Made by a program: the position numbers and the translations under genes. DNA of 64,000 bases, from contig NZ_DS560019.1 in the NCBI RefSeq assembly GCF_000154825.1, positions 620,001 to 684,000 of the forward strand, given 5' to 3'. The DNA comes from Anaerofustis stercorihominis DSM 17244. Its GTDB lineage: Bacteria > Bacillota > Clostridia > Eubacteriales > Anaerofustaceae. Below, piece by piece: positions 46,790-58,977 of the stretch (the first letter of the stretch is position 1; the number at the start of each line of letters is the position of its first letter). The notes under the pieces are model-generated. The model saw nothing but the letters and a program-made list of their open reading frames with translations. It did no database searches and was not told the origin of the DNA.

Positions 46790-47623
46790 CTATTTTAAAA
46801 ACTGCAAATTATCTTCTATATTCATTCCTTTTCTCTTATCAACAACTATCTTTTCATCTTTTTCCATAGCTTTTCTGACAAAGTCTGAAGCTATTTTACA
46901 AGCCTCTTTAAGAGTTTTACCCTCCAAAACTTTTCCTACCATGACACCAGAAAATACATCTCCGGTTCCCGGAAATCTTACATTTATATAATCGTAAGGT
47001 ACAGAAAAATATTCATCTTCAGAGTAAGAATAACCTTCTATGGAATAATTGCCACTTTCTTTATTTTTAACACTTGTTATCACCACAGATTTTGAACCCA
47101 GTTTTCTGAATTCATCGATATATTCTTTTATTTCATGACTATCAAGTTCATCCTTTTTCATTTCATCATAGAGTATAAAAGAAGCTTCGGTAAAATTCGG
47201 AGTAACGATATCCGCAAGGGCACACATTTCCCTCATATTCTTAACTACATTTTTACTAAGTCCCAAATATAAATTACCGTCATCTCCCATTATCGGGTCG
47301 ACCATAACCAGAGGATCATTCTCTTTGTTATCACTTATTATCTTTTCTATCAATCCGACTTGCTCATCGGAATTTATAAATCCGGTACAGATAGCATCAA
47401 ATTTAAAACCAAGTTCGTCCCATATACCGATAGTCTTTTTCATATATTCGCTCATATCGAGTATTTCGAATAGTCCGTAATCAAGAGTATTCGAAACTAT
47501 TGCAGTAGGAAGATTATGCACCCTAAAACCCATTGAAGATACAATAGGCATCATAGCCGACAATGCAACCTTACCCACACCCGGCAAATCATTTATTAAA
47601 AGTATATCTTTATTCTTATCCAT
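46790..47623 (-). CDS. Pyridoxal/pyridoxamine kinase-like protein
   Basis: 277 residues of the ribokinase-like PdxK/PdxY group. The N-terminal ILLINDLPGVGKVALSAMMP, the substrate-side TAIVSNTLDYG, VMVDPIMGDDGNLYLG (magnesium/ATP site), VTPNFTEASFIL and the C-terminal anion hole RFPGTGDVFSGVMVG with catalytic Asp are visible. It would phosphorylate B6 vitamers in salvage of pyridoxal phosphate. It is the first gene of a two-gene operon with the PNPOx-like gene. Confidence 0.9.
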   Translation of the reverse strand: MDKNKDILLINDLPGVGKVALSAMMPIVSSMGFRVHNLPTAIVSNTLDYGLFEILDMSEYMKKTIGIWDELGFKFDAICTGFINSDEQVGLIEKIISDNKENDPLVMVDPIMGDDGNLYLGLSKNVVKNMREMCALADIVTPNFTEASFILYDEMKKDELDSHEIKEYIDEFRKLGSKSVVITSVKNKESGNYSIEGYSYSEDEYFSVPYDYINVRFPGTGDVFSGVMVGKVLEGKTLKEACKIASDFVRKAMEKDEKIVVDKRKGMNIEDNLQFLK

Positions 47624-47708: not shown

Positions 47709-47734
47709 AAAAAGGAGGTATAATCCTCCTTTTT
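47709..47734 (-). terminator. Terminator of the zinc dehydrogenase gene
   Basis: The stem AAAAAGGAGG/CCTCCTTTTT has a 6-base loop and is followed by a T-run on the minus strand. Confidence 0.88.
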
Positions 47735-48770
47735 ATGGTACTAAAACTATTTTAATCGCTTCTCCTGCTTTTGCAATATTTAATGCTTCATCAATATCTT
47801 TCATAGGCATTACTTTGGTAATAAATTTTTCCGGAGTAAACTCCTCTGAAATTGCCAGTCTAAATGCTTCCTGCTGATCCTTTACATTTGCACCGAAATG
47901 TCCGTAAATCCATAAGTTATTATAATGAATTATATTTGTATCAAGAGGAGTTAATGTACCTTTAGGAACACCGCCAAAGAATGTAATTACTCCGCCGTTC
48001 CTTGCCATTTCCAGCGCCTGCTGCTGTGTTTTAACTACGGGAGTAGCAGAAATAACATGATCGGCACCTTTTTTATTTGTTATCCTCTTAACTTCTGCTA
48101 TCGGATCTATTTCCAAGCTGTTAATTATATAATCCGCTCCCAGTTCTTTTGTAGTATTAAGCCTGTTTTGAGCTATATCTATTGAAATAACGGTTTTGGC
48201 ACCTCTGAGTTTTGCCAGGCGAACATGAAAACAACCTATAGGTCCCGCTCCTATAATTACTACCGTATCACCGAATTTTATATTTAGTTTTCTTTGACAA
48301 GAATAAACCGAAGACAAAGGTTCTCCAAGTGTAGCATATTCATATTTTATGTCTTTTGGTATTTTAGCCCACATTTTTGCTTTTAATACTCTTCCTGATA
48401 CTGCCGCATATTCTGCAAACCCGCCGATTTCAGGCTCTTTTATATTTTGACATTGTTCGCTTCTTCCGTCTATGCAAGCTTCACACTCCATACAAGGTAC
48501 CGGTCTTGGGCTGAATATCCTATCTCCTATTTCAAAACCTGTACACTCCGCTCCTATTTCAACTATTTCACCGACTTCCTCATGACCATATACAAACGGA
48601 TAATTACCTTTTTTCGAATCGGTTGTCAAATTTCTGATATCCGAACCGCAAAGCCCCACAGCCTTCACTTTAATTAAAAATCCGTCTGTTGGACATTCCG
48701 GTTTTTCTATTTTTTCATATCTGATATCGTTTGGTCCGTACATCAAAAGAGCATTCATCATTTCTTTCAT
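47733..48770 (-). CDS. Zinc-dependent medium-chain dehydrogenase (polyol-phosphate/GatD type)
   Basis: 345 residues. The catalytic zinc site is VGLCGSDIRNL and YGHEEVGEIVEIG. The structural zinc cysteines are in PRPVPCMECEACIDGRSEQC, and the Rossmann motif is VVIIGAGPIGCFHVRLAKLR. Galactitol-1-phosphate, sorbitol and threonine dehydrogenases all have this form. It is transcribed divergently from the PRD regulator of a Gat-type PTS operon, 214 bases away. That makes oxidation of the phosphorylated polyol to a ketose phosphate the likeliest job. The start has AAGGAG seven bases upstream. Confidence 0.85.
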   Translation of the reverse strand: MKEMMNALLMYGPNDIRYEKIEKPECPTDGFLIKVKAVGLCGSDIRNLTTDSKKGNYPFVYGHEEVGEIVEIGAECTGFEIGDRIFSPRPVPCMECEACIDGRSEQCQNIKEPEIGGFAEYAAVSGRVLKAKMWAKIPKDIKYEYATLGEPLSSVYSCQRKLNIKFGDTVVIIGAGPIGCFHVRLAKLRGAKTVISIDIAQNRLNTTKELGADYIINSLEIDPIAEVKRITNKKGADHVISATPVVKTQQQALEMARNGGVITFFGGVPKGTLTPLDTNIIHYNNLWIYGHFGANVKDQQEAFRLAISEEFTPEKFITKVMPMKDIDEALNIAKAGEAIKIVLVP

Positions 48771-48984
48771 AAGTTTTCTCCTTCTTTTTCCTTTTTATAA
48801 TTTTAGACTACATAAGAAAATAAGTATGTTCAAGTCAAAAAGCTTTCTAAAATCACGGAAAAGGTTTTGTCTTGATTATTAATATAATTGAAATTATATT
48901 TAAATTAAGAAAAGCGAGATATAGACAGTAGTGAAAGAAAAACGGGTATAATAATAGTATTCAATCATACTTAAGGAGATAAAT

Positions 48985-50979
48985 ATGAAAAAACGAAGCT
49001 GTCAAATATTGGAACAACTATTATACAGAGGTAAAAATTATAAAATCGAAGAATTAGCAAAATATTATGATGTATCTCAAAAAACTCTTCAAAATGATTT
49101 TTCGGATATAAATACTTTTTTAAAAGAAATTAATATACCCCAATTAACAGTATTGAAAAGCGGAGAAATAAAATTATTTGATAAAAAATTTGATGAGTAT
49201 ACTATAGAAAAATTAAATAAACTCGGAAATATACAGTACATTATGGAAAAGAAAGAAAGAGTAAATTTAATAATAATTATACTGCTTAAAGAAAGCAAAT
49301 TTATAACAATGAATCAACTGGCGGAAAAACTATGTGTTACAAGGATAACTATTCTTAACGATATGATAGAAGTAAATTTAAAACTTAACAAATATAATAT
49401 AGAAGTTCTAAGCAAACCGGGAAAGGGAATAATAGCAGCTTATGATGAATATGATGCCAGATGTTTGATTACACATTTATTATTTGACAGTTACCATTCC
49501 AATGAAAGAGAAAGTAATATTTCAAATGTATATTTTATTAAACTAATTAAAGAAATTGAAAATAATTATACTTTGGAAAGTTTAAAAAATATATTGGATG
49601 AAATAATTATTGATAAAAAATATGATTTTAGAAATAGAGGTTATTATGCTATTTTATTCAGTTTATTTGTAATTTTAAACAGGAGATCCAACGAAATCAC
49701 GTACATTGAAGAAAACAAAAGATATTCAAACAAAGAATATGATATCGCAAAGGAGATATATGAAATATTAACAAAAAAATTAGATATCATTCCAAATAAA
49801 AACGATATTCATTACCTTGCGGGATTTATATCAAATAAAGATATATTAAAACCTTTGATTAATGTAGATGACTATGTAGAGCTTCATACTACAGTAGCTA
49901 CATTTTTATATAAAATTTCGGAACAATTGGATATAAGTTTATATGATGAATATTCTCTTTTTGAATTTTTAATAAAACATCTAAATGCAATGGCAATGAG
50001 AATAAAAAATGAAGAACTGCTGATTAATCCTATATATGAACAATTAAAAGAAAAATATGATTATGTCTTTAAAGCAGTAAAAGAAAATATAAGACTAATT
50101 GAAGATTTCTACAAATTAAAAATCGATAAAAATGAACTTTCATATATTGTAATGCATATATGTGCGGAAATAGAAAGAGAAACAACAAAAATGAGAAAAC
50201 CTTCAATCTTAATAGTATGCCCAGAAAGCATGGCAGCGGGACAGCTGATTGCCGCACAGCTTGAAAAGTATTTCGACTTTAATATAAAAGCTATTATAAC
50301 CGATAGTTATGAGATAAGCGATAATTTAAATATAGATTTTATTATTTCTACGGTAGTACTTCCAAGATTAAAATATCCAGTACTAATTATAAATACTATT
50401 ATAGATGCAGAAGACTATAACAGAATTCAGACAATAATATTTTCTCTGATAAAGGACTACAAAAAATTAAAAAAAAGCATAGAAAATAAAGAAAGTCTTA
50501 CTTTACCGGGGATTAAACATAGATTGTATCAGTCAATCAATCCCTCTTTGATAAAAATAACGGATGATATTACTTCATGGGAAGAAGTATTAAGGCAAGG
50601 TGGTGATTTACTGATAAATGCAGGATATGCTTCAAAAGATTTCAGTGATGATTTGATAAAAAGTGCAAATTTAAACGGACCGTATTTTGTGATCAGAAAG
50701 GGTGTCGGACTAGCCCATGCACTTTCAAAAGACAGTAATTATGAAAGTGCAATAAGCCTTACGGTTTTAAAAAACGGAGTAAAGTTTAATCATCCTTATA
50801 ACGACCCCGTAAAACTATTATTCAGTTTAGTTATCAAAGATTCCAAATCTTATTTAAATATATTTAACGATGTTCTTAAATTAAGTACAAACAAGGATTT
50901 TACACATGGAGTAATTAATGCAAAAAGCGAGAAAGAAGTATATGACATAATAGTAAAAGAAAGTTTAAAACTGAATTAA
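48985..50979 (+). CDS. PRD-containing transcriptional activator with PTS IIB and IIA domains
   Basis: 664 residues. Two N-terminal helix-turn-helix units (KIEELAKYYDVSQKTLQNDF and TMNQLAEKLCVTRITILNDM) are followed by two PRDs (about 170-270 and 280-385, with conserved histidines such as DIHYLAGF, FEFLIKHLNAM and YIVMHICAEIE). A IIB-Gat-like domain follows (ILIVCPESMAAGQLIAAQLE, Cys in the phosphoryl loop), then an EIIA type-2 domain (about 505-660; VGLAHALSK keeps the His). This is the MtlR/LicR design, which couples PTS phosphorylation state to operon activation. It heads the cluster IIB-IIC-IIA-aldolase. Confidence 0.92.
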   Translation: MKKRSCQILEQLLYRGKNYKIEELAKYYDVSQKTLQNDFSDINTFLKEINIPQLTVLKSGEIKLFDKKFDEYTIEKLNKLGNIQYIMEKKERVNLIIIILLKESKFITMNQLAEKLCVTRITILNDMIEVNLKLNKYNIEVLSKPGKGIIAAYDEYDARCLITHLLFDSYHSNERESNISNVYFIKLIKEIENNYTLESLKNILDEIIIDKKYDFRNRGYYAILFSLFVILNRRSNEITYIEENKRYSNKEYDIAKEIYEILTKKLDIIPNKNDIHYLAGFISNKDILKPLINVDDYVELHTTVATFLYKISEQLDISLYDEYSLFEFLIKHLNAMAMRIKNEELLINPIYEQLKEKYDYVFKAVKENIRLIEDFYKLKIDKNELSYIVMHICAEIERETTKMRKPSILIVCPESMAAGQLIAAQLEKYFDFNIKAIITDSYEISDNLNIDFIISTVVLPRLKYPVLIINTIIDAEDYNRIQTIIFSLIKDYKKLKKSIENKESLTLPGIKHRLYQSINPSLIKITDDITSWEEVLRQGGDLLINAGYASKDFSDDLIKSANLNGPYFVIRKGVGLAHALSKDSNYESAISLTVLKNGVKFNHPYNDPVKLLFSLVIKDSKSYLNIFNDVLKLSTNKDFTHGVINAKSEKEVYDIIVKESLKLN

Positions 50980-51016
50980 ATAAAAGTTCATGAATTTTAT
51001 TTAATATATATTTATC

Positions 51017-51031
51017 AAAAAAGCGCTTGGA
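51017..51031 (+). promoter_or_regulatory. Possible catabolite-responsive (cre-like) element before the IIB gene
   Basis: The palindromic core AAGCGCTT (51021-51028), in an A-rich left flank, fits the centre WAARCGYTW of CcpA sites but not the outer bases. It lies 26 bases upstream of the IIB start codon. Confidence 0.35.
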
Positions 51032-51053
51032 TTAAACTTATAGGAGGAAAAAA

Positions 51054-51353
51054 ATGAGCAAACATATCAATATCGTAGTTTCCTGCGGTACGGGAATGGC
51101 GACATCAACAATTGTAGAACAGGAAATCAAACAGATATTAAAAGAAGAAAACATTAATGCGAGTATAATAAAATGCTCTACTATGGCACTTGACTCTAAT
51201 TTAGAAAATGCAGATGTAGTATTTTTATCAACAAATTATAAATTACCGGATACTGTAAAGTGGATGAGTGTATTTTCTCTTATCTCGGGGATAAATGAAG
51301 ACGAAGAAAGAGATAAGATAAGAAAATTACTTCATGAAGTATCGGATAGTTAA
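51054..51353 (+). CDS. PTS galactitol-family EIIB (cluster A)
   Basis: 99 residues, the normal size of a separate GatB-type IIB. The phosphocysteine loop is NIVVSCGTGMATSTIVEQEI with Cys11. The second strand ADVVFLSTNYKLP and a short C-terminal helix complete the Rossmann-like fold. It passes phosphate from IIA to the sugar bound by IIC. The RBS AGGAGG is strong. The IIC gene follows after 11 bases. Confidence 0.93.
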   Translation: MSKHINIVVSCGTGMATSTIVEQEIKQILKEENINASIIKCSTMALDSNLENADVVFLSTNYKLPDTVKWMSVFSLISGINEDEERDKIRKLLHEVSDS

Positions 51354-51364
51354 GGAGGAATAAA

Positions 51365-52636
51365 ATGGAACTTTTAACTAAAATAGTAAAAATAATTATA
51401 GATTCCGGCTACATTATTATGCTTCCGATTATGATAACAATAATAGGGGTCATATTTAGAATGAAATTCGGACATGCATTGAAAGCCGGATTAATGATAG
51501 GAATAGGTCTTCAAGGTATTAATCTTATTGCGGGATACATGATAGAATCACTGACTCCTGCTATAGAATTTTATCAAAAAATGAATTCAGGCACAGGTTT
51601 TCCTCTCTTGGATGTAGGATATGAGGTAGAATTCCTGCTTGACTGGTCGGTACCTTTCGCAGCTTTGGTTGTAGTGGTTGCAATTGTTTTAAATGTATTA
51701 TTGATTCGTTTTAATATTACTAAAGTAATGAATGTAGATGTTTGGAACTTTGCAAACTTTATTACGGTAGGAGTTATTGCTTACTATATATCAAACAGTT
51801 TCCTTATAGGCTTGTTGGTTTGTGCGATTATGAGTGTTGTTACGCTGTTTTACGCACAGTGGATGGCTCCCAAATGGCAGGAGTTTACCGGGATTCAAGG
51901 GGTAACATGCAGTACATATTCAATGTCCTTAGTTTACCTGTGCGGAATAATTGTAAATAAAGTATTTGATATGATACCCAGACTAAATAAGCTGGACTTA
52001 AATATAGAACACTTAAGAGAAAAAGTAGGAATATTGGTCGATCCCGCAGTTCTCGGTTTCATCGTAGGAGCATTTTTGGGAATACTTACAAAACAGTCAA
52101 TTCAAGATATTTTGATCCTGGGAGCCAAGCTTTCCGCGGCATTGGTACTTCTTCCTAAAATAGCAGGATTATTGATGGAGGGTTTAAATCCTCTCGGTGC
52201 CGGGATAAGAAAATATATGCAAAATAAAACCGGCGGAGAAAAAGAACTTATAATAGGTATGGATGTTGCAACCGGTATCGGAGAACCATGCGGAGTTACA
52301 GTTGCAGTACTAATAATCCCCGTAATAATATTATTAAGTTTTGTAGTACCGGGAATAAAGAGTTTTCCTGCAATGCTTCTGGGCGGAACGATTTACTGGT
52401 CTGTAATGGCTTCGATGGTTTCAAACGGAAACGTACTTAGAGCATTAGTCACAAACGCACTGTTTTTGGTAATAGCAATGATTGCATGTGCATACTTTGC
52501 TCCGCAGATAGGAATTATATTACAAAGTGCGGGCGTTGTCGACACTGCCGCAGGTCATACTTGTATAGGTCTTGCCGATAGGCTCGGAAGTATAATTATG
52601 CTCATAATAGGAAAATTTATGGGCTTTGGAGCGTAA
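51365..52636 (+). CDS. PTS galactitol-family EIIC (cluster A)
   Basis: 423 residues with about ten membrane helices: IMLPIMITIIGVIFRMKFGH, GIGLQGINLIAGYM, LLDVGYEVEFLLDWSVPFAA, and the substrate-side GMDVATGIGEPCGVTVAVLI, the Gat equivalent of the sugar-binding loop. It carries the polyol across the membrane during phosphorylation. It lies directly between IIB and IIA. GatC of E. coli is of similar length. Confidence 0.93.
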   Translation: MELLTKIVKIIIDSGYIIMLPIMITIIGVIFRMKFGHALKAGLMIGIGLQGINLIAGYMIESLTPAIEFYQKMNSGTGFPLLDVGYEVEFLLDWSVPFAALVVVVAIVLNVLLIRFNITKVMNVDVWNFANFITVGVIAYYISNSFLIGLLVCAIMSVVTLFYAQWMAPKWQEFTGIQGVTCSTYSMSLVYLCGIIVNKVFDMIPRLNKLDLNIEHLREKVGILVDPAVLGFIVGAFLGILTKQSIQDILILGAKLSAALVLLPKIAGLLMEGLNPLGAGIRKYMQNKTGGEKELIIGMDVATGIGEPCGVTVAVLIIPVIILLSFVVPGIKSFPAMLLGGTIYWSVMASMVSNGNVLRALVTNALFLVIAMIACAYFAPQIGIILQSAGVVDTAAGHTCIGLADRLGSIIMLIIGKFMGFGA

Positions 52637-52649
52637 GGATAGGTGAATT

Positions 52650-53084
52650 ATGGATATTATGGTTATTGACGGTAACGTAAAAACTTGGGAAGAAGCCATA
52701 TCACTGTCTGCCGATGCTTTATATGAACATAAATATGTAAAAGAAAGCTTTAAAGAAGCATGTATAAAAAGGGAGATCGAATTTCCGACCGGATTGCCCT
52801 GTAAATTCCCTGTGGCAATTCCCCATACAGACGCAGAACATGTCAATAAAGATTGCCTTTGCTTTTTGAGATTAAATCAAAATGTAAAATTTACCAGGAT
52901 TGACGATAAACTAAAATCTGTAAACTGTAAAATGATAATAAATATGGCTTTAAGTAAAAATGAGAGCCAGGTCGAAATGTTAAGTAAATTAATAAAACTG
53001 ATTAAAGATAATAATTTAATGGAAAATTGTTATTCTTTATCAGCAAGTAAAGCAGAAAAAGAATTAAGAAAAATTATAAAATAA
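52650..53084 (+). CDS. PTS EIIA (GatA/fructose type, cluster A)
   Basis: 144 residues of the type-2 IIA fold. EAISLSADALYEHKYVKESF is followed by the phospho-site FPVAIPHTDAEHV with His59 preceded by the usual Pro. It receives phosphate from HPr and hands it to Cys11 of the IIB. It is the only free-standing IIA in the window, so it may also serve cluster B and the orphan EIIC, which have none. Confidence 0.9.
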   Translation: MDIMVIDGNVKTWEEAISLSADALYEHKYVKESFKEACIKREIEFPTGLPCKFPVAIPHTDAEHVNKDCLCFLRLNQNVKFTRIDDKLKSVNCKMIINMALSKNESQVEMLSKLIKLIKDNNLMENCYSLSASKAEKELRKIIK

Positions 53085-53097
53085 AAGAGGTAATTAT

Positions 53098-53715
53098 ATG
53101 TTATTACAAAAAGAAAGACAACAAGTAAGAGAATATTGTATAAAAATGTTTGAAAGAGGATTGACAATAGGAACAAGCGGAAACATAAGTGTATTTAACA
53201 GAAACGAAGAATTGTATGCAATAAGTCCTTCCGATATGGATTATTATGAAGTAAAAGATGAAGATGTGGTAATAATGGATATAAACGGGAATGTGGTCGA
53301 CGGAAAACAACGTCCTTCCTCTGAATTCAGGACACATCAAATATTTTATCAAAACAGAGAAGACGTAAATTCCGTTATACATAATCACGCAAAAGCCGCA
53401 ACCGCAGTATCCTGTTTATATAAAGATGTTCCGCCTATACATGAAATGATAATCGTTAACGGCGGAGATGAAATTATTACTTCACCATTCACGAAATCAG
53501 GAGGACAGGAACTTGCCGATGTAGTTTTCAAAACCATGGGAGAACGAAACGGAATATTGGTCGGAAGTCATGGTATGGTCACTGTAGGAGCAGATGTTGG
53601 AGAGGCTTTATTTATAGCTGAAGAAATGGAATTTGTATGCGATATTTATTTAAAAACGGCACCTATTGGAGGGGCAAAAATTTTAACACATGAAGATGTA
53701 GTTTATTATAAATAG
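53098..53715 (+). CDS. Class II aldolase (L-fuculose-phosphate aldolase-like)
   Basis: 205 residues. TSGNISVFN (phosphate site), RPSSEFRTH with Glu76, VIHNHAKAATAVS with His95 and His97, and VGSHGMVTVG with His158 reproduce the catalytic Glu and three zinc histidines of FucA at a constant offset. The enzyme would cleave a ketose-1-phosphate to dihydroxyacetone phosphate and an aldehyde. Its place in the PTS operon implies that the ketose phosphate arises from the imported polyol through the nearby zinc dehydrogenase. Confidence 0.93.
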   Translation: MLLQKERQQVREYCIKMFERGLTIGTSGNISVFNRNEELYAISPSDMDYYEVKDEDVVIMDINGNVVDGKQRPSSEFRTHQIFYQNREDVNSVIHNHAKAATAVSCLYKDVPPIHEMIIVNGGDEIITSPFTKSGGQELADVVFKTMGERNGILVGSHGMVTVGADVGEALFIAEEMEFVCDIYLKTAPIGGAKILTHEDVVYYK

Positions 53716-53725
53716 AGGTAACAAT

Positions 53726-54115
53726 ATGAACGAATTCGGTTATATAAGCATTCAAACAAAAAACGTAGATAAAACAGCTGATTTTTATATAGATAATTTC
53801 GGATTTGAAAAAGTTAAGAGATATGAAATAGAAGAAAACCAAGAAAAAACCATACTTCAATTTATAAAACTCGAAAATACATTATTTGAAATATTTTCAA
53901 TATCAAATTCTGAAGAGGGAGAAAACGGTCCCTTTGCAATGATAGGCATATACGTCGACGACATAGAAAAAAAGATTAAAGAATTAAAAGAAAAAAATGT
54001 GGAAATAATTGATGAAACCCCTTGGAAAGGAAGTGAAGAGGGACAGCTGATAGCAGGTATCAGGGGAATCAACAAAGAACAAATTATGCTTGTACAAGGG
54101 AAGTTCCCGCTATAG
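53726..54115 (+). CDS. VOC-family (glyoxalase-fold) protein
   Basis: 129 residues with two beta-alpha-beta-beta-beta units: FGYISIQTKNVDKTADFYID, FGFEKVKRYEIEENQ, then NGPFAMIGIYVDDIEKKIKE. Canonical metal ligands are not obvious (the usual first His is Tyr/Ser here; Glu and Gln remain possible). It lies 10 bases after the aldolase and is last in the operon before a terminator. It might process or bind the aldehyde or dicarbonyl by-product of aldol cleavage. That is inference. Confidence 0.8.
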   Translation: MNEFGYISIQTKNVDKTADFYIDNFGFEKVKRYEIEENQEKTILQFIKLENTLFEIFSISNSEEGENGPFAMIGIYVDDIEKKIKELKEKNVEIIDETPWKGSEEGQLIAGIRGINKEQIMLVQGKFPL

Positions 54116-54930: not shown

Positions 54931-54978
54931 TTTACTTTTCTTTTCTTTTAGGTATAATTAAGGTAAAGAGAAAAGAAA
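54931..54978 (+). promoter_or_regulatory. Promoter of PTS cluster B with DeoR-operator-like repeats
   Basis: TTTACT (54931-54936), 16 bases and TATAAT (54953-54958). The tracts TTTCTTTTCTTTT (54937-54949) and AAAGAGAAAAGAAA (54965-54978) are inverted copies flanking the -10 box. DeoR-type regulators often bind repeated TTTC motifs, and the next gene encodes one. Autoregulation is likely. Confidence 0.55.
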
Positions 54979-54995
54979 CAAAGGGTTAAATAGTT

Positions 54996-55757
54996 ATGTA
55001 TAAGAATAAAAGACAATACGCAATATTAGAATACATATACGAAAAGAAAGAAGCAACAGTAAATGAACTTTCAGAGAAATTTAATGTTTCTAAAGTAACT
55101 GTTCGAAAAGATTTGATCGAATTAGAAGAAAAAGGAAAGATAAAGAAAAATCACGGAGGAGCAATCCCCTCAGAAAATATATTTTTAAATGAAACACCTT
55201 ACTATAAAAAGAATATGACCGCAATAAACGAAAAAAGAAAAATCGGAGCTCTTGCTGCAAAGTTGATACAAGACAAGCAAATAGTAATAATAGACAACGG
55301 TTCAACGACAAACGAGATAGCTTCATACTTGAATGATAAAGAAATCGTAGTAGTTACAAATGACGTAAGAATAGCGAATAAGCTTGCCACATATCCGAGT
55401 ATGAGCGTTGTAATATGCGGAGGATATATAAAAACCCCGGGATATGCAATTTTCGGACCTATGGCAGAAGACCTTTTTAAACATACTTTAGCTGATATTT
55501 GTTTTTTATCAGTAGACAGTTTAAATATTAACGAGGGTTTATCTTATAACTTTTTAGACTCTGTAGCCGTAAAAAAACAAATGATAAAAAATGCAAATAA
55601 AGTAATTGTTCTATGTGACAGTTCCAAAATAGGAAAGAAATCTTTCGCAAAACTCTGCGATGTAGATAAAATAGATATAATCATAACAGATAAAATGGAA
55701 CCTGATTTAAAGAAACGATTTGAAGAAAAAGGAGTCAGAGTTTTGATAGCCAAATAA
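54996..55757 (+). CDS. DeoR/GlpR-family transcriptional regulator
   Basis: 253 residues, full length. The N-terminal winged helix (RQYAILEYIYEKKEATVNEL, FNVSKVTVRKDLIELEEKGK, IKKNHGGA) is followed by the DeoR sensor domain with the sugar-phosphate loop IVIIDNGSTTNEIASYL, VVTNDVRIANKL and a C-terminal VIVLCDSSKIGKKSF. The family represses sugar-catabolic operons until a phosphorylated sugar binds. It heads cluster B and its gene is 61 bases from the IIB gene. Confidence 0.93.
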   Translation: MYKNKRQYAILEYIYEKKEATVNELSEKFNVSKVTVRKDLIELEEKGKIKKNHGGAIPSENIFLNETPYYKKNMTAINEKRKIGALAAKLIQDKQIVIIDNGSTTNEIASYLNDKEIVVVTNDVRIANKLATYPSMSVVICGGYIKTPGYAIFGPMAEDLFKHTLADICFLSVDSLNINEGLSYNFLDSVAVKKQMIKNANKVIVLCDSSKIGKKSFAKLCDVDKIDIIITDKMEPDLKKRFEEKGVRVLIAK

Positions 55758-55818
55758 TTCAGCCAAATATATAAAAATTTTATATGTTTATATAACAAAT
55801 TGAAAGGAGGTTTATATT

Positions 55819-56112
55819 GTGGCAGTAAATGTGGTAGTCGCATGCGGAAGCGGAATAGCAACATCGACAGTTGTCGAACAGCGTCTTAAAGATATAGCAG
55901 AGGATAATAATCTTGATATTAATCTTAAGAAAACATCTATAAGCGGTCTTGAGGGAATGCTCGCTGATGCGGATTTGGTTGTGGTAACCAGCAGGTATTC
56001 CAATGATGATGTAAAAGTAAAAATATTATCGGGGACATCTCTTCTAACGGGAATAGGAGAAGATATTTTTATCGATAAATTCGTTGAAGCAGTAAAAGAA
56101 ATAAAAAAATAG
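55819..56112 (+). CDS. PTS galactitol-family EIIB (cluster B)
   Basis: 97 residues from a GTG start with a perfect AAAGGAGG eight bases upstream. The loop VNVVVACGSGIATSTVVEQR carries the phosphocysteine Cys9. ADLVVVTSRYSNDDVKV forms the second strand region. It belongs to the same family as the IIB at 51054 but is distinct in sequence. The following IIC begins after 77 bases. Confidence 0.92.
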   Translation: MAVNVVVACGSGIATSTVVEQRLKDIAEDNNLDINLKKTSISGLEGMLADADLVVVTSRYSNDDVKVKILSGTSLLTGIGEDIFIDKFVEAVKEIKK

Positions 56113-56189
56113 ATTTGTAAAAGGGAAAAAATATACAAATAAAAAAGGGAAAAATATTGTAATTTATAAGTTTTAATAAGGAGGATGTT

Positions 56190-57458
56190 ATGGATACATT
56201 ATTAACTATAGTAAAATATATTACAGATTCATTGGGAGCCATGGTAATCATGCCGCTATTCCTAATAGTACTGGGACTGGCGTTTAGAATGAAACCGCTA
56301 AAAGCATTTAGATCAGGTTTACTTGTAGGTATAGGGTTTCAGGGTATTAACTTGATTATAGGACTTTTAGGCAATGCAGTATCACCTGCAGCAACAGCAT
56401 TGGCAGAAAAAGTAGGTCTTAACTTTAATATAATCGATGTAGGATTTCCTACCGTCGGAGCAGCCGCATGGGCAACACCTATTGCAGCTTTAGTTATTCC
56501 TATAGCTATTTTGATAAATGTAATAATGATTACATTAAAATTGACAAAAACACTTAATATAGACATTTGGAATATGTTTCATTTTATATTGGCAGGAGGG
56601 ATAGCATACTTGATTTCCGGAAGTATAGCTGTTGGATTGGTAGTTTCAGCTATATTCTCTATTATCACACTGCTTCTTGCCGATTGGGACTCCAAAACAT
56701 GGCAGGAATATTTCGGACTTGAAGGTACGAGCTGTAGTACGCTTGCTACAATGACCAGTGCAATATGTTCATGTATAGTAAATAAAATAATTGATCTTAT
56801 TCCGGGTATCAGAGATTTTGATATAAATCCGGCAAAAATAAACAAATTAAAAGGAATAGGAGATCCTATGTTCTTAGGATTCTTTATAGGTATCGTATTA
56901 AGCTTACTAGGCGGACTTCCTTTGGATAAGGTCCTTAATACAGGCGTAGGTATTGCTGCAGCAATGGTTCTTCTTCCAAGAATGGTTTCACTATTAATGG
57001 AAGGTTTAGCTCCTATCTCAAGAGCTGCTTCTGATTTTACAAAGAAAAAACTCAAAGGAAGAACATTACTAATAGGTATGGACTGTGCTTTAGGTATAGG
57101 GGATCCTACAGTTATAGCAGCATCAACAATAATGATACCTTTCGCAGTACTTCTTGCAGTTTTACTTCCGGGCAATGGATTTTTACCTATAGTATCCCTA
57201 ACGGGTTTAACATACTTCTGTGTTCCTGCGGCGGCATACTCTAAAGGGAACCTATTCAGGACCATTGTTACAATGCTTATATTCTACACTCTACATATAT
57301 ATGTTATCAATGCGATATGTCCTCTTGTTACGGGACTTGCAACATGGGCGGGAGTAGATTTACCTGCAGGCGCATCACTTATTGCAGGCGGTAATCCTGA
57401 ACACGCATTCTTGTTATTAATAAAACCGATATTATCAATATTCGGACTAGCCGGCTAA
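56190..57458 (+). CDS. PTS galactitol-family EIIC (cluster B)
   Basis: 422 residues with about ten helices: MVIMPLFLIVLGLAFRMKPL, GIGFQGINLIIGLL, IIDVGFPTVGAAAWATPIAA, LNIDIWNMFHFILAG and GMDCALGIGDPTVIAASTIM. It resembles the orphan EIIC at 40599 more (V-G-W/F-PT, DIWN) than the cluster A EIIC. No IIA gene lies in this operon. It would import a polyol, sugar acid or modified sugar. The adjacent amidohydrolase hints at an acyl- or amide-bearing substrate. Confidence 0.92.
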   Translation: MDTLLTIVKYITDSLGAMVIMPLFLIVLGLAFRMKPLKAFRSGLLVGIGFQGINLIIGLLGNAVSPAATALAEKVGLNFNIIDVGFPTVGAAAWATPIAALVIPIAILINVIMITLKLTKTLNIDIWNMFHFILAGGIAYLISGSIAVGLVVSAIFSIITLLLADWDSKTWQEYFGLEGTSCSTLATMTSAICSCIVNKIIDLIPGIRDFDINPAKINKLKGIGDPMFLGFFIGIVLSLLGGLPLDKVLNTGVGIAAAMVLLPRMVSLLMEGLAPISRAASDFTKKKLKGRTLLIGMDCALGIGDPTVIAASTIMIPFAVLLAVLLPGNGFLPIVSLTGLTYFCVPAAAYSKGNLFRTIVTMLIFYTLHIYVINAICPLVTGLATWAGVDLPAGASLIAGGNPEHAFLLLIKPILSIFGLAG

Positions 57459-57469
57459 GAGGTTAAAAT

Positions 57470-57787
57470 ATGATTGACGTTTTATTGGTATCAAACGGAA
57501 ACAAAGATGATGTTGAAAATATTAAAGAAAAAATTTATAATTTAGGAGAAGACTTTTTTATAGAAAGTAACATAATAGCAGTCGATAGTATGGAGGCAGA
57601 AAACATAAATTTTGATTATGATTTTGCTGTTACGCTGGATAGTAAAGTAGTCTTAGATAAAAAAACAATTGACGCAACTTCTATATTATTAGACAGAGCA
57701 GGGGAAAAAACAGAAAAAGATATTCAAAATCAGCTTTTAAAAGCAAGAGCAACACATAAAAGACAAAAAGAAAGTCAGGAGAAGTAA
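57470..57787 (+). CDS. 105-residue protein resembling a cysteine-less PTS IIB domain
   Basis: I do not recognise it as a named family. Its start DVLLVSNGNKDDVENIKEKI has the strand-loop-helix outline of the IIB gene products here (VVSCGTG...), with Asn9 where the phosphocysteine should be. SNIIAVDSMEAENINFDYDF parallels the second strand and helix of the cluster A IIB (SIIKCSTMALDSNLEN). The C-terminal 25 residues are charged helix (KDIQNQLLKARATHKRQKES). It sits between EIIC and the amidohydrolase, whose ATG follows its stop immediately. A regulatory or scaffold role for the transporter or enzyme is a guess. Confidence 0.7.
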   Translation: MIDVLLVSNGNKDDVENIKEKIYNLGEDFFIESNIIAVDSMEAENINFDYDFAVTLDSKVVLDKKTIDATSILLDRAGEKTEKDIQNQLLKARATHKRQKESQEK

Positions 57788-58927
57788 ATGGTATATGATA
57801 TTATCATTGAAAACGGAACATTAATCGATCCGTTATATAATATACATCAAAAAGGAAACATTTATATCATTAATGATAAAATAGTATCTCCACCGAAAGA
57901 TAACGAAAAAATAGAGTATAAACAAAAGATAGATGCATCCGGACATTATGTAATTCCCGGACTTGTAGAAAATCATACACACATATATAACGGAGGCGGA
58001 GATCCGAATTTAAATGCAGATGTAATAATGCTCCCCAGCGGAGTAACTTCCGCTATAGATCAAGGTTCTTCGGGGTGGTCTAACTTTAATTTATTCTTTA
58101 AAAGCATCATTATGAGCTCTATGATGAACATAAAATGCTATTTAAACGTCTCTAATTCAGGGCTTATTACAGAAGATTACTTTGAAAACATAGACCCAAA
58201 ATATTTCAATAAAGAAATGCTTAAATTTTATACAAAGAAATATAAAGATACTATCATCGGACTTAAAATCAGATTATGCAGAGACTCAATAAAAGACATG
58301 GGTTTAAAACCTCTTGAAAAAACAATAGAACTTGCAGAAGAATTAAATCTTCCGGTTTCAGTACATATAAAAGATTTAGATGAAATAAAAGAAGCCGCTA
58401 ATATGCTGAGAAAAGGTGATATTTGGGTCCACATGTATCAACAAACTGGACCTACCATATTGGATAATCAAGGTAAAGTAATAAACGAAGTTCTAAAGGC
58501 TAAAGAAAGAGGCGTTTTATTCGACGTAGCAAGCGGAAGGGGAAGCTTCTCCTTTGACACCATAAATAAAGCATTTAAATGTGGTTTAAAACCCGATTTA
58601 CTCGGTACGGATTTAGTTGCTTATAATGTATATCAAAGACCTATATTTTCCATACCTTATACCATGTCTATATATTTAAATCTTGGTATGAGTATAGATG
58701 AACTACTAAAAATATGTATAAAAAATCCGGCTGAACAAATGAATCTAAGCGGAAAAATCGATACTTTAAAAGAAAATACAACCGCAGATATATGTATTAT
58801 GGAAATCAAAGAAAAAGATATAACATTCAATGATAAATATGGCGGCCGTTTAAATGGAAGCAGACTTATCGTTCCAAAGATGACAATAAAAGACGGAAAG
58901 GTAGTTTACAGAAATATAGAATTTTGA
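57788..58927 (+). CDS. Amidohydrolase/deacetylase-family metallohydrolase (COG3964-like)
   Basis: 379 residues of the amidohydrolase superfamily, with a small beta sandwich formed by both ends (YDIIIENGTLIDPLYN and RLIVPKMTIKDGKVVYRN). The binuclear metal site is readable: His63 and His65 in LVENHTHIYNGGGDPN, Lys160 in IIGLKIRLCRDS (carboxylated lysine position), His193 in LPVSVHIKD, His215 in IWVHMYQQT and Asp275 in LLGTDLVAYN. The group is reported to hydrolyse esters or amides, and the real substrate here is unknown. As last gene of the cluster B operon it probably acts on the imported phosphorylated compound. Confidence 0.88.
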   Translation: MVYDIIIENGTLIDPLYNIHQKGNIYIINDKIVSPPKDNEKIEYKQKIDASGHYVIPGLVENHTHIYNGGGDPNLNADVIMLPSGVTSAIDQGSSGWSNFNLFFKSIIMSSMMNIKCYLNVSNSGLITEDYFENIDPKYFNKEMLKFYTKKYKDTIIGLKIRLCRDSIKDMGLKPLEKTIELAEELNLPVSVHIKDLDEIKEAANMLRKGDIWVHMYQQTGPTILDNQGKVINEVLKAKERGVLFDVASGRGSFSFDTINKAFKCGLKPDLLGTDLVAYNVYQRPIFSIPYTMSIYLNLGMSIDELLKICIKNPAEQMNLSGKIDTLKENTTADICIMEIKEKDITFNDKYGGRLNGSRLIVPKMTIKDGKVVYRNIEF

Positions 58928-58947
58928 TTATATATTTTAAATCGTTT

Positions 58948-58977
58948 AAAAAGAACTCAATTAGAGTTCTTTTTTTA
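58948..58977 (+). terminator. Terminator of PTS cluster B
   Basis: The stem AAAAAGAACTC/GAGTTCTTTTT with a 5-base loop and T7. Confidence 0.9.

Follow-up and report, generated by a model that had tools for sequence, protein, structure and literature searches.

The galactitol phosphotransferase system (PTS) combines GatABC with GatD and has a cysteine in its IIB subunit. Enzymes of the amidohydrolase superfamily share a barrel fold with metal ligands supplied by an HxH motif, Lys, His, His and Asp. In lactobacilli, incomplete enzyme II sets are reported to be common and to include single genes for Gat IIA or Gat IIC that stand alone (PMC2848229). We analyzed 64,000 nucleotides (nt) of the genome of Anaerofustis stercorihominis DSM 17244 (contig NZ_DS560019.1, positions 620,001 to 684,000; hereafter the window), in which positions 54931-58977 hold a DeoR-family regulator, a Gat-type IIB with Cys9, a Gat-type IIC, a 105-residue protein (p105) and an amidohydrolase. 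A preliminary description of this DNA had named the same five genes at these coordinates, and both content and positions were confirmed, as was the lack of a IIA: the Gat family (TC 4.A.5) has a IIA with its IIB and IIC, and none was present among the operon's open reading frames (ORFs) or Pfam matches. We found that the operon is a real, conserved and narrowly distributed variant of the Gat-type PTS operon.

The same five genes occur in the same order in this genome and in two further Anaerofustis genomes (G008, at L039, 92% complete; G007, at L040, 100% complete). A genome from another genus of the family (G010, 84% complete) carries the DeoR, IIB, IIC and p105 genes and then the start of the hydrolase gene, of which the first 57 residues, at 59% identity, are present up to the contig end. 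This gene order was found in four of the 13 family genomes, in all of which the hydrolase was sought and several of which, outside these four, are incomplete. Enzyme I scored over its cut-off in exactly the same four of 13 genomes, and this match speaks for an operon that functions with the PTS. Beyond the family, a genome of the Tepidanaerobacteraceae (G242) has at L041 the order regulator-IIA-IIB-IIC-hydrolase-zinc dehydrogenase without p105, the regulator carrying sigma-54, PRD and EIIA domains. Hydrolase searches covered 67 genomes of the order, 398 of the phylum and 26 of the class of G242, together with a pattern scan of a species-level collection (10 loci, 4 with full-length relatives and 6 matching ~60 residues only). 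Hydrolases at least 57% identical to that of the operon stood directly behind IIC or p105 in five of six genomes, and the proposed link between a Gat-type PTS and the hydrolase held in this neighborhood search. The operon IIC was 66-95% identical to the four other hydrolase-linked IICs, with the next best at about 41%; IICs of this subfamily (at least 66% identity) occurred in 2 of the 398 phylum genomes, this one and G242, and the other 14 phylum genomes with an IIC match at E ≤ 1e-90 had identities of 39-42%. No described operon of this kind was present among the listed matches in open PMC text, a weak negative with subscription journals outside its scope.

The explanation of the whole gene set towards which we lean slightly is that of a DeoR-controlled catabolic operon in which the Gat-type IIC would import a polyhydroxy compound for phosphorylation by the IIB during uptake. 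The most probable cargo would be derived from a sugar acid or polyol and contain an amide, acyl or lactone bond. The IIB would obtain its phosphate from a Gat-type IIA whose gene lies outside the operon, with a 159-residue orphan IIA, and not that of the adjoining cluster A, as the leading candidate. The metal hydrolase would cut the phosphorylated product, and the resulting fragment would be processed further by a dehydrogenase and an aldolase with genes at other loci, the L041 relative keeping a dehydrogenase in its operon. p105, IIB-shaped by prediction and not phosphorylatable in the usual way, would dock to or regulate the transporter, the IIA or the hydrolase. The gene content and its conservation, the metal-site residues, the absence of cysteine from p105 and the existence of a conserved alternative IIA are observed directly. 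We infer this order of steps, together with the substrate class, the donor IIA and the role of p105.

The regulator matched both DeoR-family domains in Pfam over cut-off (DeoRC, 163.3 bits; HTH_DeoR, 66.5 bits). The IIB matched PTS_IIB (PF02302; 43.3 bits, cut-off 23.6), and its Cys9 was invariant in 16 of 16 aligned IIBs, giving the phosphorylatable cysteine and CGxG motif of the Gat family, while the IIC matched the Gat-family domain EIIC-GAT (PF03611; 221.5 bits, cut-off 24.2), which also takes in ascorbate-type IICs such as that at L129. Both subunits appear to be Gat-type from their best NCBIfam matches, each under its cut-off: galactitol IIB for the IIB (46.5 bits, cut-off 95) and galactitol family TIGR00827, the only match, for the IIC (355 bits, cut-off 542). 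Ratios of nonsynonymous to synonymous substitution (dN/dS) were 0.013-0.094 for DeoR in five of six pairs (the sixth was not computable), 0.05-0.22 for IIB and 0.09-0.14 for the hydrolase. Values like those of IIB and the hydrolase were obtained for p105 (0.04-0.25 in four of six pairs, silent sites being saturated in the other two), which is a real gene under purifying selection.

Intergenic gaps were 61, 77, 11 and 0 nt from DeoR through IIB, IIC and p105 to the hydrolase, with the hydrolase ATG directly 3' of the p105 stop codon; the tight spacing ascribed to the whole operon applies to IIC-p105-hydrolase and less so to DeoR-IIB-IIC. Of the promoter with DeoR-like repeats described earlier, the promoter stood: its hexamers aligned and were conserved in three Anaerofustis genomes, and promoter-like sites in the region as a whole (23, against 24.0 expected, sd 5.0) showed no excess over chance. 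The inverted repeat around the -10 box has arms that are 92% complementary and is present in L039 too, but a repeat search of the three Anaerofustis genomes did not report the same pair in L040, so a DeoR operator at this site is only suggested. The terminator placed at the end of the operon was recovered as the sole plus-strand match in the scanned region, where terminators on both strands numbered 4 compared to 2.0 in shuffles (sd 1.6).

Table 1 Features of the operon and of related loci. Coordinates refer to the window unless a locus is given.
Feature	Coordinates	Strand	Basis
Promoter, -35 TTTACT, 16 nt, -10 TATAAT	54931..54958	+	Site scan, conservation
Imperfect inverted repeat around -10 box, possible DeoR operator	54937..54978	.	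Arms 54937-54949 / 54966-54978
DeoR-family transcriptional regulator, 253 aa	54996..55757	+	Pfam, NCBIfam
Gat-type PTS IIB, 97 aa, GTG start, Cys9 in CGSGIATST	55819..56112	+	Pfam, NCBIfam
Gat-type PTS IIC, 422 aa	56190..57458	+	PF03611
p105, 105 aa, without Cys, predicted IIB-like fold	57470..57787	+	Predicted fold, dN/dS
Amidohydrolase-superfamily metal hydrolase, 379 aa	57788..58927	+	Pfam, ligand residues, fold match
Intrinsic terminator, 11-bp stem, T tract	58948..58974	+	Terminator scan
Cluster A: dehydrogenase, PRD/EIIA regulator, IIB, IIC, IIA, class II aldolase, VOC protein	47733-54115		
p93, adjoining two SDR genes	L204:8714-8989 (own genome), L198:4691-4972, L202:11058-11333		

The hydrolase has both the barrel fold and the ligand set of the amidohydrolase superfamily. 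It scored over cut-off for Amidohydro_3 (46.1 bits) and Amidohydro_1 (32.8 bits), and H63, H65, K160, H193, H215 and D275, the metal ligands expected of the superfamily, were invariant in 13 chosen homologues, in agreement with the complete metal site noted earlier; R162 was nearly invariant in the same set. The nearest solved structure was 8je0, named 'Amidase' (E = 9.2e-72) and titled 'A novel amidohydrolase' (Foldseek TM 0.90). The best NCBIfam match, PRK12394 (NF009060), reached 413.8 bits and fell short of its cut-off of 442, which the L041 homologue passed at 446.7, and the EF_0837 family TIGR03583 scored far lower (215.6 bits, cut-off 432.15).

In a tree of 22 homologues, which left out for example those in L074, L079, L081, L084, L088 and L090, the PTS-linked hydrolases and the G006 homologue at L042 formed one group (support 100/99). 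This group is part of a nine-member branch (100/100) in which the two top PRK12394 scorers also fall and which is separate from the EF_0837/DgaE-type branch (100/100). A grouping of the four PTS-linked hydrolases without L042 was not rejected (p-AU 0.307), and the tree did not need it. Of 17 stretches with hydrolase relatives, 16 were covered (L070 belongs to the same genome as L041), and the hydrolase of L074, with its neighborhood, was missed. Within the branch, the relative at L092 adjoins an MFS carrier, those at L093 and L094 adjoin a DASS carrier, an RraA-like aldolase and a 2-hydroxyacid dehydrogenase, and the one at L071 adjoins an MFS carrier, a PdxA-like enzyme and a two-domain kinase-like protein (PF07005/PF17042), presumably a sugar-acid kinase.

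Directly upstream of the operon lies cluster A (Table 1), whose Gat-type IIA (52650-53084; PF00359, 92.3 bits) was originally proposed to be lent to the operon, the two clusters then making one functional unit. In this genome cluster A lies between a pyridoxamine kinase gene (46790-47623; 266 bits, cut-off 231) and DeoR; in L039 and L040 DeoR follows the kinase counterpart and cluster A is missing from the interval, which in L040 holds one 151-aa ORF. This difference could reflect a gain in the present genome or losses in the other two. PF00359 matches numbered 16 in this genome, 5 in G007, 10 in G008 and 11 in G242. We found no cluster A around the PF00359 matches of G007 and G008 (all read but three, which lie in ORFs of 632, 668 and 720 aa), and no counterpart of it among the 11 Gat IICs read in these genomes (5 in G007, 6 in G008). 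The G008 IIC most similar to that of cluster A, at L123, has its counterpart in this genome at L127, and the same holds for the L123 IIA, the closest in G008 to the cluster A IIA at 47% identity; in G007, the nearer of two stand-alone IIAs was 35% identical. Proximity and a IIA of the right type speak for cluster A as the donor, but the operon is intact in G007 and G008, where cluster A was not found, and we consider this donor very unlikely.

A better candidate than the cluster A IIA is the orphan Gat-type IIA (G000:C5:461066-461542), which has a PHTD motif and no directly adjoining IIB or IIC, and is 100% identical in G008 and 94% identical in G007. G007 has 5 Gat IIC genes compared to 2 stand-alone Gat IIAs, which indicates that one IIA is probably shared among several PTS systems.

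All four p105 sequences lack cysteine and have Asn9 at the place that Cys9 takes in IIB by sequence position, such that the loop cysteine of PTS IIBs is missing. The window copy shares 93, 69 and 66% identity with the other three, and conservation peaks at residues 46-56 and 64-102. A search of 391 class genomes gave 2 matches, the inclusion of the p105-bearing G008 and G010 in that set not being certain. A model built from three sequences had a mean pLDDT of 88 and a pTM of 0.80 (five models ranged from 47 to 88), and its top two Foldseek matches in the PDB were IIBs, PtxB (3czc, E = 4.7e-3) and galactitol IIB (5gqs, E = 1.7e-2), both with probability 1.00 and neither below 1e-3. The description of p105 as a cysteine-less IIB-like protein stood as regards the cysteine, had some backing from the predicted fold, and failed as regards sequence kinship with IIB; its IIB-like nature is a prediction from the modeled fold. 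There was no Pfam match at E ≤ 1, nothing under E 0.25 among PDB sequences and nothing under E 0.05 among viral structure models. A PHROGs match to a family of unknown function (E 0.009) and an NCBIfam match to a CBASS lipase (E 0.017, under cut-off) were judged to be chance, and a 99-aa Enterococcus faecalis protein between IIC and MupG, considered as a counterpart, was on reading a membrane protein.

A second small IIB-like protein without the loop cysteine, p93 (Table 1), occurs in three Anaerofustis genomes, with AASMKDAKF in place of ACGTGIATS. It was rejected as a relative of p105 (hhalign probability 0.13%).

Mga and AtxA are reported to require their IIB(Gat)-like domain for multimerization, and dimers of AtxA and RivR to depend on a cysteine within it (PMC8560693). 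Since Mga multimerization is lost without the domain, the IIB fold can act as a protein-contact domain. For p105 the most likely role is docking to the transporter, the IIA or the hydrolase, or regulation of one of them. In a more specific version, p105 would be an IIB mimic without the phosphorylation site that has turned into a dedicated adaptor. Bound to IIA or IIC in place of IIB, it would tie the hydrolase to the transporter, and uptake, phosphorylation and hydrolysis would be physically coupled or would depend on whether a shared IIA is phosphorylated. This version seems to us decidedly improbable; were it true, p93 would make cysteine-less IIB-like proteins a general device in these bacteria.

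Several observations weigh against the sequence of uptake, phosphorylation and hydrolysis that we favor. The G006 hydrolase at L042, 57% identical to that of the operon, lies between rsgA and a rhodanese gene with no PTS gene adjoining, and the five Gat IICs of G006 are all at most 39% identical to the operon IIC. Since branch relatives occur with non-PTS carriers, family membership does not imply that hydrolysis follows phosphorylation, and we found neither a characterized enzyme close to the hydrolase nor an assigned function for the PRK12394-like branch. With respect to the IIA, the orphan gene is ~1.9 kb away from a second Gat operon, itself equipped with a IIA, in this genome and in G008, G007 keeping the orphan without that operon (within the 15 kb fetched). 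G010 has enzyme I and a Gat IIB-IIC pair (L149 / L201), and neither HPr, a PF00359 IIA nor the orphan IIA was found in it, where an assembly that is 84% complete leaves absence unproven. An unresolved tree of 14 IIAs, with long branches, grouped no Anaerofustis IIA with that of L041. For p105, a second structural comparison was led by the ComE receiver (4mld, Z 9.5, root-mean-square deviation 3.0, 95 aligned), in a tie with GatB (5gqs, Z 8.7, 2.9, 90 aligned); 1tvm reached Z 8.3 (2.6, 90 aligned). Kinship of p105 with IIB in sequence was dropped at hhalign probabilities of 0.8% (5 IIBs) and 0.7% (16 IIBs) from shallow alignments; p93 reached 42.6% against IIB, so the test can respond, weakly, to a cysteine-less IIB-like protein.

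The nature of the substrate was first sought in acyl or amide compounds by analogy to COG3964-like enzymes; as the EF_0837/DgaE branch is separate, this amounted to guessing from remote relatives. The more closely related hydrolases adjoin carriers and hydroxyacid enzymes, which points to acids, and derivatives of sugar acids (amides, acyl compounds or lactones) are the likelier class of substrate. Within this class, the hydrolase could be a lactonase or esterase acting on a phosphorylated lactone or other ester of a sugar acid, as UlaG and phospho-furanose lactonases act on phosphorylated compounds of this sort. The hydroxyacid dehydrogenase with RraA-like aldolase and the PdxA-like enzyme with kinase-like protein beside its relatives would suit such a substrate, R162 could bind a carboxylate, and PTE-family enzymes at the PTS loci L129 and L131 have phospho-furanose lactonase as their second-best NCBIfam match, all far under cut-off; these PTE enzymes belong to a different superfamily branch, however, and we know of no lactonase in COG3964, which leaves a lactonase or esterase a possible but doubtful reading. 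We regard N-deacetylation of an amino-sugar acid, a possible activity of the EF_0837-type cousins, as an unlikely function of the hydrolase. DgaE-family or SelA-like genes with KDGP-aldolase-like genes do adjoin related hydrolases at L072, L075, L082, L086, L095, L096 and L097, but the tree splits that branch from the operon hydrolase with full support (100/100), and by eye no DgaE-, SelA- or KDGP-aldolase-like gene was recognized around the operon in the four family genomes or at L041, the rest of the present genome not having been searched. The GlcNAc-acid deacetylase OngB is said to be closest to a D-aminoacylase (PMC9537276).

The hydrolase might also be a mere neighbor outside the transport pathway, as the L042 copy apart from PTS genes and the MFS and DASS carriers of other relatives would allow. 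We give this very little credence, as its position directly behind IIC or p105 recurs in five of six genomes, one of them of another class, and the gap to p105 here is 0 nt. Under the catabolic reading that we prefer, the later steps can be sought through the L041 zinc dehydrogenase, among whose matches galactitol-1-phosphate 5-dehydrogenase is under cut-off and not the best. The closest of nine Anaerofustis dehydrogenases were three counterparts (L198, L202, L204) at 52% identity, compared to 28% for the cluster A dehydrogenase. They sit in another Gat-rich locus of the three Anaerofustis genomes, and no IIA was seen in these stretches. The presence of an L041-like dehydrogenase in a second Gat-rich locus suggests that the pathway may be spread over several loci, a link drawn from similarity between sequences.

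Many Gat-type PTS loci occur in this 2.28 Mb genome (40599-41978 and 48985-53715 in the window; L127, L128, L130, L131, L132 and L204), some without a IIA seen beside the IIC. Amidohydrolase-superfamily enzymes of the PTE family adjoin PTS genes twice more, at L129:8594-9505 beside an ascorbate-like IIC and at L131:12646-13620 beside a Gat-like one. A further Gat-type locus (L132:3621-5047) has BtpA/SgcQ-family and ribulose-phosphate-epimerase-family genes.

If the favored account is true, the operon would provide the first physiological setting for a hydrolase branch for which only a structure was found, an instance of a Gat-type PTS that relies on a IIA in common use, and a case, amenable to testing, in which the fold of a PTS subunit has found a new use without phosphorylation. 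A sugar-acid derivative present in the gut may be the substrate.

Compared to described systems, the hydrolase is nearest to PRK12394/NF009060 and PDB 8je0, with which it shares the fold and, in relatives, the ligand residues, but the PRK12394 relatives adjoin MFS or DASS carriers in place of the PTS found in Anaerofustis. EF_0837-type hydrolases (2ics, 2ogj and 8wzy, which we take to be COG3964) likewise have the overall fold and, in aligned members, the ligand residues of the operon hydrolase; they differ in forming a separate branch, in their identities of 26-32% for aligned members and 24-26% for the PDB entries, and in adjoining DgaE-family, KDGP-aldolase, DUF4310-4312 or MupG genes. The incomplete PTS sets of lactobacilli, unlike the Anaerofustis operon, come without a linked hydrolase and without a IIB-like companion in the passages of PMC2848229 examined. 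The Mga-type domain of PMC8560693, the deletion of which abolishes Mga multimerization, has an IIB-like fold as predicted for p105, whereas p105 forms a protein of its own, encoded in a transport operon, and has no cysteine, which AtxA and RivR need for dimers. With the galactitol PTS, the operon has in common the Pfam families of IIB and IIC and the cysteine in IIB; it differs in lacking a IIA, in having a DeoR regulator, p105 and a metal hydrolase, and in an IIC that scores under the curated galactitol cut-off. The L041 operon also has a IIA and a zinc dehydrogenase, as does the GatABC/GatD set.

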